DNA from: Gemmatimonadota bacterium
GTDB taxonomy: Bacteria; Gemmatimonadota; Gemmatimonadetes; Longimicrobiales; Gaopeijiaceae
Assembly (NCBI GenBank): GCA_022823365.1
Contig: JAJDXG010000019.1
Location: 62,001 to 126,000 of the forward strand
Direction: 5' to 3'
Length of the DNA stretch: 64,000 nt
Shown here: in pieces, positions 3,605 to 33,464 of the stretch
Position numbering within the stretch: position 1 is the first letter of the stretch
How the letters are laid out: the number at the start of each line of letters is the position of its first letter
The notes under the pieces: generated by a model
The model's database searches: none
The model's input: the letters and a program-made list of their open reading frames with translations, nothing else
Told to the model about the DNA's origin: nothing
Translations under genes and position numbers: made by a program

Positions 3605-4869
3605 TGCTGGTTTTCGACCTCGCACTCAAGTCGCTCCGCAACCGCGCCTTCAGCACGTCGCTCACGGTGGGCTCCATCGCGCTCAGCGTCGCCCTCCTGA
3701 TCGGCGTCGAGAACGTGCGCGTGGGAATGCGCGAAAGCTTCTCGAACACCATCTCCCAGACCGACCTGATCGTGGGCGCCAAGGGCGGCACCATCCAGTT
3801 GCTGCTGTACTCGGTCTTCGGCATGGGGTCGCCGACCAACAATCTGACCTGGGACACCTACCGCGAGTGGGCCGAACATCCCGCCGTCGAGTGGACCATT
3901 CCCTACGGCCTGGGGGACAGCCACAGGGGATTCCGCGTCATCGGCACCAACGAGGACTTCTACCGGCACTACCGGTATCGAGGGGGGCAGGCTATCGCGC
4001 TGGCCGAAGGCCGGCCCGGCTCGGGGGTTTTCGACGTAACCCTGGGCGCGGATGTGGCGAGCGAACTGGGCTACGGGCTCGGCGACGAGGTCGCGGTGAC
4101 CCACGGGATCGGCGAGGTGGGCTTCCTGAACCACGACCAGATGCCGTTTACGGTAGTGGGCATCCTCGACAAGACCTTCACCCCGGTCGACCGCGCGGTC
4201 TACGTCACCCTCGAGGGCATCGAGGCCATCCACTTCGGATGGGAGGACGGCGCGCCGCCCATGCCGGGCGAGGAGCAAACGCGCGAGGCAGTGCTTGCGA
4301 TGGGTGAGATCGAGATCACCCAGGTGACATCGTTCTTCGTGGGGGCGACGAACCGGAGGGACGTGCTCCGGCTGCAGCGCGAGGTCAACGACTATGAGGG
4401 CGAGCCGATGATGGCGGTCATCCCCGGTTTGGCCCTGAACGAGATGTGGCAGGGGATCGGCTACGCCGAGACCGGGCTCCGGGTAGTGACGATCTTCGTG
4501 GTGCTGGTGGGACTGCTGGGCATGCTGGTGTCGCTCTACACGTCGCTCAACGAGCGCAGGCGCGAGATGGCGATCCTGCGCGCCGTCGGGGCCGGACCCA
4601 ACCGGATTGTCTCGCTGCTGGTGCTCGAGTCGGTGTGCCTGGCCGCGGCGGGGGCGATTGGCGGACTGGCGCTGGTATACGTGCTGCTCTCAGCCGGGCA
4701 GCCCATCGTCGAGGCGCAGGTGGGGCTCTTCATCCCGATCCGGCCACCCGGCTCGATCGAATTGCTCTTCCTCGGCGCCGTGGTGACGGCCGGATTCCTG
4801 ATGGGCTTCGTGCCCGCCCTCAAGGCCTACCGCACCGCCCTCCACGACGGGCTCGCGGTGCGGGTGTAG
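3604..4869 (+). CDS. ABC transporter permease (FtsX/MacB type)
   Basis: N-terminal TM, periplasmic domain and C-terminal FtsX core (NERRREMAILRAVGAGPNRIVSLLVLES); TGATG overlap with upstream ATPase. Confidence 0.92.
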   Translation: MLVFDLALKSLRNRAFSTSLTVGSIALSVALLIGVENVRVGMRESFSNTISQTDLIVGAKGGTIQLLLYSVFGMGSPTNNLTWDTYREWAEHPAVEWTIPYGLGDSHRGFRVIGTNEDFYRHYRYRGGQAIALAEGRPGSGVFDVTLGADVASELGYGLGDEVAVTHGIGEVGFLNHDQMPFTVVGILDKTFTPVDRAVYVTLEGIEAIHFGWEDGAPPMPGEEQTREAVLAMGEIEITQVTSFFVGATNRRDVLRLQREVNDYEGEPMMAVIPGLALNEMWQGIGYAETGLRVVTIFVVLVGLLGMLVSLYTSLNERRREMAILRAVGAGPNRIVSLLVLESVCLAAAGAIGGLALVYVLLSAGQPIVEAQVGLFIPIRPPGSIELLFLGAVVTAGFLMGFVPALKAYRTALHDGLAVRV

Positions 4870-17493: not shown

Positions 17494-17541
17494 TTGACGT
17501 CTGACGGATTGTCGGCTACTGTTGTCTACGAAGATCTTCGT
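17494..17541 (+). promoter_or_regulatory. Predicted promoter plus BlaI-type operator
   Basis: TTGACG (17494-17499)-N17-TACTGT (17517-17522), then perfect 14-bp palindrome ACGAAGATCTTCGT (17528-17541). Confidence 0.7.
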
Positions 17542-17562
17542 GGGACAGCAAGGGCACCAGGA

Positions 17563-18858
17563 ATGAGTCGAGAGCGATTGACCTGCCTCAGAGGACCCCG
17601 CCACAAGGCCGTCGCGTGGTCATGCGGTGTACTGGTACTCCTGGCCGCTTGCGGCAACGACACGCAGTCCACGCCCTCCGAAGCCCAGGTCACCGACTCG
17701 GCGGGCGTCGCCATCGTCACCAACCCCTCCGGCGATGCCGTCTACGCTACCATCGCCCCTGAACCGGTCCTCTCCATCGGCGCCATCGACGGCCCCGCGG
17801 AAGTGCTCTTCGGGCGCATTTCCTCGGTCGCGGTCGACGGCGCGGGCAATCTGATCGTCGCCGACGGCCAGATGGATGAGATCCGTATCTTCGACGCGGG
17901 CGGTGTCCACCTCCAAACCATTGGGGGCCCCGGAGAGGGGCCGGGCGAATTCCGGGCGCTCGCGGGAGCCTGGCCCACCGCGGGGGGCGCCATCGTCGCG
18001 GCGGACCAGCGGCTCGACCGCATCACCCGCTTCGGTCCGGACGGCGAGCTGGTGGGCACCGCCACCTTCCGGGGCCCGGGCGAGCAGCCCGTGATCCGCC
18101 CGATCCGCGTGGCGGGGCCGGACCTTTTCCTCAGCCGGGTGGAATCCCTGAACCTCCCCTCGCTGGAGGGAGCCTTCAGCCTGGAAGAGGCCCTCGAATC
18201 GATCTCGGACCCTTCCGGAAGCAGATCCGAGTACCTGGTCCGGCACGACCTGGAGGGCACCCTGGTCGACACGGTCACGTCAGTGCCTGGTCAGGCTACC
18301 CAGACTTCGGCACAGGGCAGCGGAACCAATCTGTCGATCCAGATCCTGCGGTTGCCCTTCTCGTCGGCTGCCGCCGCCACCGCCTCGCCGGAAGGGCGCA
18401 TGGCCGTCACCACGGGCCGATCCTACGAGTTCTCCACCTACGACCCCACGGGCACGCTCGAGCGCATCGTGCGCCTCACCGAAGAGCCGCCCCTGCGAAC
18501 CGACGCGCACCTCGAAGCATGGGTTCGGGGCTCCACAGGTGGGCGCGAGCCCATGGACGACACCCAGGTGGAGGCAGCCCTGCGCCGCTACCGGGAGATG
18601 CCCCTTCCCGACCGTCTCCCCGCGTGGAACTCGCTGGTGATCGCCGGCGGCGGCGAGATCTGGTCGCGCCGCTTCGCGATCAGGGGTGCCGAGACGGTGG
18701 CTCGCGATGTGTTCGCCGCCGACGGCCGCTTCCTGGGCCAGGTGGTGGCACCCGCCAGCCTTCGCATCCAGCATATCGGCGACGGAAGGGTGACTGTCGT
18801 ATCCACCGACGATCTCGGCGTAGAGCGCGTGGAGGTGTACGAGCTGCAGATGCCCTGA
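17563..18858 (+). CDS. 6-bladed beta-propeller (NHL-like) lipoprotein
   Basis: CGVLVLLAAC lipobox; GRISSVAVDGAGNLIVADGQMDEIRIFDAGGVHLQTIGGPGEGPGEF. Confidence 0.8.
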   Translation: MSRERLTCLRGPRHKAVAWSCGVLVLLAACGNDTQSTPSEAQVTDSAGVAIVTNPSGDAVYATIAPEPVLSIGAIDGPAEVLFGRISSVAVDGAGNLIVADGQMDEIRIFDAGGVHLQTIGGPGEGPGEFRALAGAWPTAGGAIVAADQRLDRITRFGPDGELVGTATFRGPGEQPVIRPIRVAGPDLFLSRVESLNLPSLEGAFSLEEALESISDPSGSRSEYLVRHDLEGTLVDTVTSVPGQATQTSAQGSGTNLSIQILRLPFSSAAAATASPEGRMAVTTGRSYEFSTYDPTGTLERIVRLTEEPPLRTDAHLEAWVRGSTGGREPMDDTQVEAALRRYREMPLPDRLPAWNSLVIAGGGEIWSRRFAIRGAETVARDVFAADGRFLGQVVAPASLRIQHIGDGRVTVVSTDDLGVERVEVYELQMP

Positions 18859-28440: not shown

Positions 28441-28560
28441 CTCATCGAGACCGGCCGAGGGACTGGCCCTGTGACGCCGGGGCAACCGGATCGTTTTCTC
28501 TGGAGAGCGATTAGCGGTGCCAACTCCCGCGGATTCCCGTGATGGAATCCGAGAGATGAG
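28441..28560 (+). ncRNA. SAM-I riboswitch (S-box leader)
   Basis: P1 CTCATC...GATGAG; conserved CGAGGGACTGGCCCTGTGACGCCGGGGCAACC and GGTGCCAACTCC; lies upstream of methionine biosynthesis genes. Confidence 0.93.
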
Positions 28561-28628
28561 TGCCTCGGTCGGCTTGGCCGCCCGGCGCATCCAGGGGTTG
28601 GCATCGCGCCAACCTGTGGAGAGCCAGG

Positions 28629-29738
28629 ATGCGAGCGACGACCTCCCCTCCCCAAGCGTTCCCGCTTCCGTACCCCCCCGCCCGCAACGGGAGCGTCCCT
28701 GACCTCAGGCAACCCCCGCGCGCTCGCCCCCTGCCGCCCGCCCGCCGCGGAGCGGTCTACATGCGCCCCGGCTGGAAGCCGGAACTCGAACCCGAGTTGG
28801 CGGCGCGCTTCCGGATTCCCTTCGAGGTCGCGGGGCCGGAGGACGGCCCCCTGCTGGTGGCCATGGGCGGGATCTCGGCGAGCCGGCATGTGGCCGCCAA
28901 CGCCGACGACCGCTCCGAAGGCTGGTGGCGGAAGATCGTCGGACCGGGGCTCGCCATCGACTCGCGCGAGTGGCGCATCCTCGGCATCGACTTCATCGGC
29001 GCGCCGGGCACCATCGAGCCGGTTGGCGGCGACGGGTCGCGCTCGCACTTCCACATCACGCCGGCGGACCAGGCGGACGCGGTGGTGGCCGTGCTGGACC
29101 ACCTCGGCGAAAAGAAGGTCCATCGGGCCGTGGGCGCGTCTTACGGGGGTAACGCCGCACTGGCCCTGGGCATCCGCTATCCCCGGCGTGCGGAGGGCGT
29201 GGTCGTCATTGCGGCCGCCCACCGCCCCCATCCCCTCGCGACCGGGGTGCGCAGCGTACAGCGCGCGATCCTCGAGTTCGCACGCGACCAGGGCCGCGAG
29301 GCCGACGGCGTAGCCATCGCGAGGGCGCTGGCCTTCACCACCTACAAGACGGACGCCGGGCTGGACGCGCGCTTCTCCTTCGAGGCCGACCTGTCGAGCG
29401 GCAAGCCGGTCCACCCGGTGGACCGCTACCTGTGGAAGCGCGGACGGGCCTTCGCGGGGCGGTTCGATGCGAGAACCTACCTGACGCTCTGCGCCTCGAT
29501 CGATCTGTGCGACCTCGAGCCCGAGGCGCTGACGGTCCCCTCCTGGCTGATCGCCTGGGAGGAGGACAGGTCCGTGCCGCTCTGGCTGGTCGAGGAGATG
29601 CACCGCCGGACCGGTGCCCGTTCGCGCCTTCGGATACTTCATTCGGACGGCGGGCACGACGCCTTTCTCCTTCACGCACCCGAATACCAGGCCGCTCTGC
29701 GGGAGAGCCTGGGGCTTTCCGTCGGACAGGAGGCATAG
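28629..29738 (+). CDS. metX: Homoserine O-acetyltransferase
   Basis: alpha/beta hydrolase; GASYGGNAALALGIRYP nucleophile elbow; C-terminal SDGGHDAFL; downstream of SAM-I riboswitch. Confidence 0.88.
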   Translation: MRATTSPPQAFPLPYPPARNGSVPDLRQPPRARPLPPARRGAVYMRPGWKPELEPELAARFRIPFEVAGPEDGPLLVAMGGISASRHVAANADDRSEGWWRKIVGPGLAIDSREWRILGIDFIGAPGTIEPVGGDGSRSHFHITPADQADAVVAVLDHLGEKKVHRAVGASYGGNAALALGIRYPRRAEGVVVIAAAHRPHPLATGVRSVQRAILEFARDQGREADGVAIARALAFTTYKTDAGLDARFSFEADLSSGKPVHPVDRYLWKRGRAFAGRFDARTYLTLCASIDLCDLEPEALTVPSWLIAWEEDRSVPLWLVEEMHRRTGARSRLRILHSDGGHDAFLLHAPEYQAALRESLGLSVGQEA

Positions 29739-29741
29739 ACC

Positions 29742-31076
29742 ATGAAAGAGCACTGTACCCCAGATCGGAACCTCCCCGGGAATTGCCTCGGCGTGCCGAC
29801 ACCCGGTCCCGATGGCAAGGGGCGCATCTCGGCGCGGGCAACTGACGTCGTCCGGGCCGGGCTCGCCTCGGACACCGCGTACGGGGCGGTCATGCCCCCC
29901 CTCTACCTGTCAAGCAACTTCCGCTTCGCCGGGCTTGAGGACCCGCCGCCATTCGACTACACCCGATCCGGCAATCCCACCCGCGAACATCTTACCGGCG
30001 CGCTGGCCCAACTGGAGGGTGGCGCGGGCGCCGTGGCGACCTCCTCCGGAATGTCCGCGGTGGGCGTCGTCCTCAACCTGGTGCACGCCGATGACCTGGT
30101 GCTGGCTCCGCACGACTGTTACGGGGGGACGCACCGTCTGCTGGTCGGCCTCGAGCGTCAGGGTCGGCTGCGCGTGCGCCTCGTGGACTTCACGGATCCG
30201 GTCTCGCTCGCGGCCGGGCTGGAGCAGGGGCCACGCATGATCTGGGTCGAGACGCCCAGCAACCCGCTGCTGCGCATCACCGACCTGGCCGCAGTGGCGC
30301 GCGAGGCCCGGCGCGTGGGAGCGACCGCCGTCGCCGACAACACCTTCCTCTCACCGGCGCTCCAGCAGCCCATCGACTTCGGCTTCGATCTGGTCGTGCA
30401 CTCCACCACCAAGTTCATCAACGGCCACAGCGATGTCGTGGGCGGCGCGGTGATCGCGGCGAGCGACGAACTCTTCGAGGAGATCGCGTGGTGGACCAAC
30501 GCCACCGGCGCGGCCCAGAGCCCCTTCGACAGCTACCTGGCGCTGCGCGGCGTGCGCACGCTGTTCGCCCGCACCCGCATCCACGAGGAGAACACACGCG
30601 CGGTCGTCGACCTGCTCGCGTCGCATCCCGCGGTTGCCCGGGTCTATCACCCGGGACTCACGACGCACCCCGGCCACGACCTCGCCCGCCGCCAGCAGTC
30701 CGGATACGGCAGCCTGTTCAGCTTCGAGCTGAAGGGCGGGCGCGCGGCAGCCGAAGAACTCCTCACCCGGCTTCGCCTGTTCACCCTGGCCGAGTCGCTG
30801 GGCGGTGTCGAGAGCCTCATCTGCCACCCGGCCACGATGACCCACGCGGCCATGGACGAGGCCGCTCAGGCCGTCGCGGGGATCGGCAAGGGCCTGCTCC
30901 GGGTCTCCGTCGGCATCGAGTCCGCGGACGATCTGGTCGCCGATCTCAGGCAGGCGCTGTCGGCGTGTCGGGCGGCGGCTCCGGGGTGCGGTCCCCATGC
31001 CGCCGATGTCGTGCCCATCGGTTCGGTGGCGGAGGAGCCCGGTCTCGCGCGGGCGAGCATCGCAGGGATCGGCTGA
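29742..31076 (+). CDS. Cys/Met metabolism PLP enzyme (cystathionine gamma-synthase type)
   Basis: YTRSGNPTREHLTGALAQLEGG; ETPSNPLLRITDL; VVHSTTKFINGHSDVVGG. Confidence 0.92.
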   Translation: MKEHCTPDRNLPGNCLGVPTPGPDGKGRISARATDVVRAGLASDTAYGAVMPPLYLSSNFRFAGLEDPPPFDYTRSGNPTREHLTGALAQLEGGAGAVATSSGMSAVGVVLNLVHADDLVLAPHDCYGGTHRLLVGLERQGRLRVRLVDFTDPVSLAAGLEQGPRMIWVETPSNPLLRITDLAAVAREARRVGATAVADNTFLSPALQQPIDFGFDLVVHSTTKFINGHSDVVGGAVIAASDELFEEIAWWTNATGAAQSPFDSYLALRGVRTLFARTRIHEENTRAVVDLLASHPAVARVYHPGLTTHPGHDLARRQQSGYGSLFSFELKGGRAAAEELLTRLRLFTLAESLGGVESLICHPATMTHAAMDEAAQAVAGIGKGLLRVSVGIESADDLVADLRQALSACRAAAPGCGPHAADVVPIGSVAEEPGLARASIAGIG

Positions 31077-31156
31077 CAGGCAGGCGGCCGAGGCTCTGAA
31101 GGGGAGCGGACCCGGCCGGAAGCCACCGATTCATCCGGACGCTTGCGATCTGTCCT

Positions 31157-31220
31157 ACGAAGATCCTCGTTGACAACCGGGGAGCCATCGGTTACAATCC
31201 CCGACTACGAAAACCTTCGT
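31157..31220 (+). promoter_or_regulatory. BlaI-type double operator bracketing a sigma70-like promoter
   Basis: ACGAAGATCCTCGT (31157-31170) overlaps TTGACA (31170-31175)-N17-TACAAT (31193-31198); second site ACGAAAACCTTCGT (31207-31220) at the predicted start site. Confidence 0.8.
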
Positions 31221-31239
31221 GAAGTGCGGGGAGAGCAAC

Positions 31240-31647
31240 ATGGCGAGTGAATCAGCCGAATCGAGGCGGGAACCGAATCGATTCACCCACCGCGAGCTGG
31301 ACATCATGAGCGTCCTCTGGCGCCGGGGATCGGGGACGGTGGCGGAGGTCCGGGACGTCCTCGGGGAGGATGTCGGCTACACCACCGTTCTCAAGATGCT
31401 GCAGATCCTGGAGGGCAAAAACGCGGTGCGCCACGAGAAGGAAGGGCGGGCCCACCGCTACTACCCGCTGGTCGAATCCGCCGACGCGGGCGGCAACGCG
31501 CTCAAGCGGGTCATGAACAAGATCTTCCACGGCTCCGCGGAGCTGCTGCTCGCGACGCTGGTCGAGAACCGGGAATTCAGCGACGAGGAGATCGAGCGCA
31601 TGCGCTCAATTCTGGATCGAGCGCAGGAGAAGGAGGAAGACCGATGA
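31240..31647 (+). CDS. BlaI/MecI/CopY-family transcriptional repressor
   Basis: FTHRELDIMSVLWRRGSGTVAEVRDVLGEDVGYTTVLKMLQILEGKNAVRHEKEGRAHRYYPLV. Confidence 0.93.
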   Translation: MASESAESRREPNRFTHRELDIMSVLWRRGSGTVAEVRDVLGEDVGYTTVLKMLQILEGKNAVRHEKEGRAHRYYPLVESADAGGNALKRVMNKIFHGSAELLLATLVENREFSDEEIERMRSILDRAQEKEEDR

Positions 31648-32930
31648 TCATGTGGATGGCATTTGCCGCGGTGATCGGCGGTCTGCTGGCGGCTGGAGGA
31701 TGGGCCTGCGAGCGCCTGTGCGAGGCCATGGGATGGCCGCGCCGCTTCGCCTGGCTGGCTGCTCTCACGCTGGCGGTGGTGATCCCCCTCTCTGCGAGGC
31801 CGCCGGCGCCCACGCTGGAGGCTCCCTTGAACGCCTTGCCGGCCGTTGAGCAAGTCGTCGCAGGGACGCAAAGCCCGGTGGCGGTGACCCCCGGCCCGAT
31901 GCTCGACCGCATGGCGGCGATGTCCTGGGGCACCGCCTCCCTGGCCACCCTCCTGGTGTTCGGCGCAATCCTGGGCCTCATGGCCCGCTCGCGCCGCCGC
32001 TGGCCCCGGCGGTCGGTGGACGGCGAGGATGTCTACGTGTCGGAGGGCTTCGGCCCGGCGCTGATCGGCGTGACCCGTCCCTCCGTGGTCATCCCCGACT
32101 GGCTCCTGTGCGCGGGTGACCGGGCCGGCCGCGTCGCGATCCAGCACGAGCGCGAGCATGCGCGCGCCCGAGACCACCTGGCTCTCCTCTACGGCGCAGT
32201 GATCGCTGCTCTCTTCCCCTGGAGCCCGGCGGTCTGGTGGATGGTCCGCAACCTGCGCGGTGCCGTCGAGATCGACTGCGACCGGCGCGTCATCGCCTCC
32301 GGAATCCCGGCGGACGACTACGGAAAGATGCTGCTCGCCATCGGGGTGGGACGGCACCGCCGCTGGGCGTTGACGCCCGCCCTCGTCGAATCCCGACATT
32401 CCCTCGAACGGAGACTGAAGGTCATGGCTGCGAAGAAGACGAAGTGGACCCCGCTGCGCACGGTGACGCTGGCGGGCCTGACCCTGGCGGCGGTGGTGAT
32501 CGCCTGTGACGCCAACGCCCCCACCGCTCTCGACGATGCGCTCCTCGACGTGTTTGCGGACCCGGAGGCGGAGGCCAGCGCGGACGGGTCCCTCACCCCG
32601 CAAGCCCGGGCCGAGCAGGTCGAGGCGATGCGGCTGAGGAGCAGCGAACTTGGAATCGAGCCCCGGCCGCTGATCTTCATCGATGGCCTGGAGGTGACGA
32701 ATCCCGACTTCGTGCTCCGGGCCGGCAGGTACACGTTCACGACCAGCGGCGGCGGTTCCTCCTCGCCGCTGATCTCCGTGAATCCCGACCACATCAAACG
32801 GATCGAGGTCGTCAAGGGAGAGGCCGCGCGCCGCTTGTTCGGCGACGAGGCCGAGAACGGCGTCATCCAGATCTTCACGAAGGAATCCGAGGCGTCGGAA
32901 CCGGCGGCCGGGACCCCGGGCTCGCGGTAG
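31644..32930 (+). CDS. M56 (BlaR1-type) metallopeptidase with C-terminal TonB-plug-like domain
   Basis: Four N-terminal hydrophobic segments, QHEREHARARDHL (HExxH), then VVIACD, then LIFIDGLEV...NPDHIKRIEVVKGEAARRLFGDEAENGVIQIFTKES; ATGA overlap with blaI-like gene. Confidence 0.88.
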   Translation: MIMWMAFAAVIGGLLAAGGWACERLCEAMGWPRRFAWLAALTLAVVIPLSARPPAPTLEAPLNALPAVEQVVAGTQSPVAVTPGPMLDRMAAMSWGTASLATLLVFGAILGLMARSRRRWPRRSVDGEDVYVSEGFGPALIGVTRPSVVIPDWLLCAGDRAGRVAIQHEREHARARDHLALLYGAVIAALFPWSPAVWWMVRNLRGAVEIDCDRRVIASGIPADDYGKMLLAIGVGRHRRWALTPALVESRHSLERRLKVMAAKKTKWTPLRTVTLAGLTLAAVVIACDANAPTALDDALLDVFADPEAEASADGSLTPQARAEQVEAMRLRSSELGIEPRPLIFIDGLEVTNPDFVLRAGRYTFTTSGGGSSSPLISVNPDHIKRIEVVKGEAARRLFGDEAENGVIQIFTKESEASEPAAGTPGSR

Positions 32931-33068: not shown

Positions 33069-33464
33069 ATGGACCCCACGAGGATGAATCGGAGCCCGCT
33101 GCGCGCGGCACCGCTCGCCGGTCTGACCTTGACGGCGGTGGTCATGGCCTGCGACACCGAAGCCCCCACCGCTCTCGACGACGCGCTCCTCGACGTGCTG
33201 GCGGACCCCGAGGCAGCCGTCAACGCGGACGGGGCCGACAATCCGGGAGCACTTCAAATCAGGGGCGCGCTCGGAGACGGCGCCCCGCTGGTCTTCGTCG
33301 ACGGCGTCGAGCTCGAAGCGGGCAGCGCGGGGCTCAGCTCCCTGAACCCGGACGACATCGAGAGCATCGAGGTCATCAAGGGAGAGGCGGCCGCCGACCT
33401 GTACGGCGAGCGCGCCGAGAACGGCGTCATCCGGATCCTGACGATCGAGTCCCCGGGCGGCTGA
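33069..33464 (+). CDS. Putative lipoprotein with TonB-plug-like domain (partial paralog of M56 C-terminus)
   Basis: MDPTRMNRSPLRAAPLAGLTLTAVVMACDTEAPTALDDALLDVLADPEA...VFVDGVELEAGSAGLSSLNPDDIESIEVIKGEAAADLYGERAENGVIRILTIES; SD GGAGG before ATG 33069; frame open from 32985. Confidence 0.65.
   Translation: MDPTRMNRSPLRAAPLAGLTLTAVVMACDTEAPTALDDALLDVLADPEAAVNADGADNPGALQIRGALGDGAPLVFVDGVELEAGSAGLSSLNPDDIESIEVIKGEAAADLYGERAENGVIRILTIESPGG

Follow-up and report, generated by a model that had tools for sequence, protein, structure and literature searches.

A three-gene operon of a Gemmatimonadota bacterium (G000, 3.8 Mb genome) combines a BlaI/MecI-family repressor with an M56 metalloprotease that ends in half of a TonB-dependent receptor plug, which we term the mini-plug, and with a lipoprotein carrying a stand-alone copy of that domain. 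Most of what is known of BlaI/M56 pairs concerns beta-lactam resistance. We regard it as about evenly balanced whether the operon encodes a regulated-proteolysis circuit of the BlaI/BlaR1 type that has been re-purposed to follow an envelope signal, with the membrane-tethered mini-plug as its periplasmic sensor. All coordinates below refer to the window, the whole stretch of 64,000 nucleotides that was analysed; relatives come from public assemblies, which carry the labels Gemmatimonadetes, BD2-11 clade or, in what is probably an error, Gammaproteobacteria.

The repressor gene (blaI, 31240–31647, + strand) encodes 135 aa with a clear Penicillinase_R domain (Pfam, E = 8.3e-29 for the BlaI reading taken from 31219), and its stop codon overlaps the start of the M56 gene by 4 bp (ATGA). 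The 428 aa product of the M56 gene (31644–32930, + strand) matches Peptidase_M56 over residues 137–260 (Pfam, E = 3.8e-16, 59.6 bits against a cut-off of 31). Both zinc motifs are present and invariant across the alignment examined, namely the H, E and H of HEREH (H168–H172, 32145–32159, + strand) and the ExxxD gluzincin motif (defined in PMC9834060), here EIDCD (E209–D213, 32268–32282, + strand). The kinship with BlaR1 is also seen with a profile built from 27 homologues (E = 7e-7) and with the AF2 model of the fusion, which matches the BlaR1 cryo-EM structures (8exq, E = 3.2e-5, prob 1.00). Only M56 and Plug exceed the Pfam cut-offs in this protein, which thus has no penicillin-binding domain by that search, and the NCBIfam model blaR1_generic reaches just 32.2 bits against a cut-off of 400, with the match confined to the protease part. 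These results bear out the original prediction, made from the letters of the sequence, of an M56 sensor protease whose C-terminus holds a plug-like domain instead of a penicillin-binding sensor and which has BlaI as its partner.

The architecture therefore resembles that of BlaR1/BlaI and MecR1/MecI in its M56 zinc protease with four transmembrane helices, HExxH and ExxxD motifs and an adjoining repressor gene, and in having its sensor at the C-terminus, on the outer side of the membrane. It differs from both in that a mini-plug replaces the penicillin-binding domain, in that a lipobox stands at the end of the last transmembrane helix, and in that the predicted target is a lipoprotein instead of a beta-lactamase or PBP. 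Upstream of the operon (28560–31076) we identified by reading alpha/beta-hydrolase-like and PLP-dependent, sulfur-amino-acid-type genes, which are syntenic in close relatives.

Half a receptor plug, fused and free

The mini-plug occupies residues 339–415 of the M56 protein (32658–32888, + strand). Pfam assigns residues 336–407 to Plug (PF07715, E = 8.9e-6, 26.6 bits against a cut-off of 23.9), and the family profile of the 27 homologues matches the plugs of solved SusC/RagA structures at E = 1.1e-11 to 2e-7, while 22 of the 27 homologues individually pass the Pfam Plug search at E = 0.001. Because the Pfam, family-profile and single-homologue searches all find it, the likeness of the tail to plugs is far above chance. 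The proposed plug signature is thus homologous to SusC/TonB receptor plugs as claimed, but it represents the second half of the domain only: the tail covers positions 55–107 of the 107-position profile, the TonB box and the N-terminal plug half are absent from the Pfam and profile alignments, and the reading frame stops 13 residues past the plug motif, so that no beta-barrel follows. The mini-plug therefore shares the motif and the predicted fold of the C-terminal half with plugs of SusC/RagA-type TonB-dependent receptors, and is unlike those receptors in lacking the barrel, the TonB box and the N-terminal half and in being carried instead by an inner-membrane protease or a predicted lipid anchor.

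In the profile alignment the homologues correspond to residues 70–141 of BtuB. When the BtuB plug is placed under force, its labile part is residues 23–73, which adjoin the TonB box, and a signalling role has been proposed for the mechanically strong C-terminal part (PMC5413942). Judged by this alignment, the mini-plug is the mechanically strong part of a plug from which the force-labile N-terminal half is missing. That such a half-plug folds on its own is a prediction of the models; the full FepA plug behaved as unfolded when isolated (PMC11658791). In the model of the fusion the plug strands reach a pLDDT of about 78, which is of moderate confidence, and the matches to the SusC and Cir plugs combine a weak E-value of about 0.2 with a prob of 0.97–0.99. 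Comparison of nine close orthologues gives the protease a dN/dS of 0.12; the first plug strand follows at 0.18 and the plug motif at 0.31, with the loop between them at 0.75. Together, the predicted fold, the matches to plugs in the PDB and the purifying selection indicate that the mini-plug is a conserved folded domain, and they speak against the alternative raised at the outset that the segment is disordered and unconserved.

The third gene of the operon (33069–33464, + strand, with a possible alternative start at 33084) encodes a 131 aa paralogue of the M56 tail, to which it is 49% identical. Its Plug match (Pfam, E = 2.5e-13) is stronger than that of the tail itself, and it has a signal peptide with a lipobox, from which lipidation at Cys28 (33150–33152, + strand) is predicted on the basis of its sequence and the family pattern. 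The duplicated segment starts just before the equivalent of the fourth transmembrane helix and looks like an ordinary lipoprotein. Its model has a pLDDT of mostly 77–95 over residues 71–125, and the top 34 PDB hits are without exception TonB-dependent receptors, led by SusC/RagA plugs (best match 8a9y, E = 4.4e-3, prob 1.00, 50% identity over 58 columns). We rejected the idea that this downstream copy is a pseudogene, as every one of the eight close relatives has an intact reading frame for it. When fused and free tails are put into one tree, the two sets fall mostly apart with weak support, and for that reason we make no claim on the age of the duplication. Other barrel-less plug proteins were seen among the loci examined: a 203 aa lipoprotein of the source genome (L046, G000:C6:70500-73500) has a nearly complete plug and adjoins a SusC-like gene, and in L049 and L051 the plug stands behind a carboxypeptidase-regulatory-like domain.

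Tails and lipoboxes of Gemmatimonadota M56 proteins

The survey of M56 proteins for plug domains that had been suggested covered 121 complete Gemmatimonadota proteins extracted from 148 loci. One or two mini-plugs are present in 69 of the 121, six of which also have TonB_C; a further 29 have TonB_C only and 23 have neither by the profiles used. The plug share is biased upward, since the proteins sampled were ranked by their resemblance to a profile made up mainly of plug-M56 family members. Plug-bearing proteins span at least five of the numbered families, blaI lies directly 5′ of 52 of the 69 plug-type M56 genes in the loci surveyed, and a tblastn search of plasmids returned no plug-type M56 protein. 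Some tails depart from these patterns: the M56 proteins of L012 and L143 have four consecutive TonB_C matches and lack the lipobox Cys; one from the source genome itself (L013, G000:C20) has a long repetitive tail of HRGHVATLRGEIA repeats followed by coiled-coil-like sequence; and in L009 (G185) a 382 aa lipoprotein (L009_+0_879) encoded 5′ of an M56 relative contains weak mini-plug segments with a long AAERGRE repeat between them.

The VVIACD segment that the original prediction had described as hydrophobic is the end of the fourth transmembrane helix (32451–32507, + strand) and reads as a lipobox, VIA-C288 with Asp at +2. The helix is a short hydrophobic run with Lys/Arg before it. It closes with [AG]C in 68 of the 69 proteins that have a plug versus 39 of 52 other M56 proteins (Fisher p = 6e-5, indicative only as the sequences are related), and being common in proteins without a plug the lipobox is not specific to it. 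The Cys is absent from 14 of the 121 complete homologues; all 107 Cys-bearing tails pass the PROSITE-type lipobox pattern, with Asp or Glu at +2 in 86 and Pro at +6 in 101 of them. By comparison, the +2 residue is A, G, S, T or N in the nine other predicted lipoproteins of the window and D/E in none. In E. coli an Asp at +2 retains a lipoprotein in the inner membrane, a rule from which Gemmatimonadota may differ. A disulfide role for Cys288 is disfavoured, as a second Cys is usually absent from the tail (the lipobox Cys is the sole one in 56 of 63 plug tails). We also considered an internal start at a conserved Met that stands before the last transmembrane helix, which would let the M56 gene itself produce a free lipoprotein.

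In S. aureus, the signal peptidase SpsB sheds the BlaR1 sensor by a cut between Gly331 and Gln332, directly after the last transmembrane helix (PMC9834060). The lipobox lies at a corresponding place, and by this analogy processing there via the lipoprotein pathway is plausible.

Operator-like sites and a predicted target

A near-consensus promoter (TTGACA-17-TACAAT, 11 of 12 consensus matches, 31170–31198, + strand) precedes blaI, where shuffled sequences give a mean of 0.2 promoter sites. Two palindromes of the type ACGAA-N4-TTCGT flank it and are kept in all close relatives: CTACGAAGATCCTCGTTG (31155–31172) overlaps the –35 element, and CTACGAAAACCTTCGTGA (31205–31222) lies just 3′ of the –10 element, 50 bp after the first. 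On sequence grounds they are candidate operators. Allowing one mismatch or none, the search of the whole genome finds the pattern four times and the reversed-pattern control not at all; the four sites are the blaI pair, one on another contig and a perfect match in the window, CTACGAAGATCTTCGTGG (17526–17543), 3 bp after a –10-like TACTGT.

The gene conserved behind this third site (17563–18858, + strand) is the predicted target and encodes a 431 aa lipoprotein. Its assignment as a beta-propeller is weak, the match to the 6-bladed family DUF5128 falling just under the Pfam cut-off (E = 6.7e-5, 22.7 bits against 22.9). The site is kept in seven of the eight genomes of the genus and absent in G193; among the genomes that have it, the target frame of G132 as read stops after 189 aa. 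Its arms are kept while the four central bases vary (GATC, GGAT, GAAC, GTTC), but it is not a fully independent footprint because the whole upstream region is conserved among close relatives. A lipoprotein is transcribed divergently from the blaI operator-like sites in at least five loci of relatives (L001, L002, L005, L006, L054), and this is a different protein, distantly related to the 17563–18858 kind at about 28–30% identity. No receptor gene was found behind the three of the four genomic sites that were examined. A further operator-like pair, at 4360 and 4417 of L057 (G053:C132), precedes the gene of an amidohydrolase-like lipoprotein; the cluster there has three tandem M56-plug genes.

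What the mini-plug may report

If the operon is a re-purposed BlaI/BlaR1-type circuit, then BlaI would repress its own operon by binding the ACGAA-N4-TTCGT palindromes, and via such a palindrome also the beta-propeller-like lipoprotein gene 13.6 kb away. The M56 protein would sit in the inner membrane with its zinc protease site in the cytosol and its mini-plug sensor tethered at the membrane surface via the lipobox cysteine. There the mini-plug would meet or lose a partner, for which the likeliest candidate is an outer-membrane-protein or lipoprotein intermediate, upon which the protease would cut BlaI and the lipoprotein genes would be turned on, while the co-transcribed free mini-plug lipoprotein may compete for the same partner and so damp the response. 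Such a circuit would be like FecA/FecR surface signalling in that a piece of an outer-membrane receptor takes part in transcriptional control via regulated proteolysis (PMC11658791); there, however, the receptor retains a signalling domain that contacts an inner-membrane regulator, whereas here the receptor piece is built into the protease.

The strongest rival, which also fits much of this evidence but which we hold to be appreciably less probable, is a switch based on lipoprotein processing. In this model the fourth transmembrane helix serves as the signal peptide of a lipoprotein, with Cys288 as the target of Lgt and signal peptidase II. The mini-plug is thereby released as an inner-membrane lipoprotein and processing holds the protease off, so that failed lipoprotein maturation or traffic would leave an uncut, active protease. 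The wider occurrence of the lipobox than of the plug, the short helix with its preceding basic residues, the single Cys of most tails, the duplicated tail that reads as an ordinary lipoprotein and the lipoprotein nature of the predicted target would all fit, and the SpsB cut of BlaR1 offers a precedent. However, that an internal transmembrane helix serves as a signal peptidase II substrate is an assumption here, homologues that lack the Cys do not fit, and the model leaves the plug nature of the tail unexplained. Taken further, and equally tentatively, Gemmatimonadota may have a BlaR1-like class in which the last transmembrane helix doubles as a lipoprotein signal peptide and the sensor, mini-plug or TonB_C, becomes an inner-membrane lipoprotein, coupling BlaI cleavage to lipoprotein or outer-membrane-protein biogenesis.

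The mini-plug could instead bind TonB or empty receptor barrels and report transport demand, as first proposed. Its homology to receptor plugs and the abundance of receptors suggested by 53 Plug matches in the source genome agree with this, and the sibling M56 proteins with TonB_C, some with both domains, keep a link to outer-membrane transport open. However, the tail has neither a TonB box nor the force-labile N-terminal half and so lacks the usual TonB contact, which makes direct TonB sensing less likely; in addition, the predicted target is not a receptor, nor is any gene behind the three of four operator-like sites examined. We therefore consider this reading rather unlikely. More improbable still is a passive mini-plug, acting as a structural spacer or dimerisation unit while sensing resides in the transmembrane and loop region: tails are exchangeable (Plug, TonB_C or none) on one protease core and the linker and loop evolve fast, but the plug strands are under purifying selection and a separate, conserved plug lipoprotein exists. 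For the re-purposed circuit that we prefer, the lipobox, together with a paralogue and a target that are both predicted lipoproteins, makes an envelope- or lipoprotein-related signal at least as likely as sensing of TonB or receptors.

In the open-access literature searched we found no study of the M56-plus-plug architecture. A possible link to BAM stress was dropped, as the BlaI/M56 text matches in PMC12578637 are look-alikes among gene names and catalogue numbers. The present family bears on what BlaI/M56 members without a penicillin-binding domain sense, a question that its defined sensor fold, conserved lipobox, predicted operators and predicted target make directly testable. An answer would also show half of a plug working outside a barrel, and the protease may prove to monitor the cell envelope instead of antibiotics.
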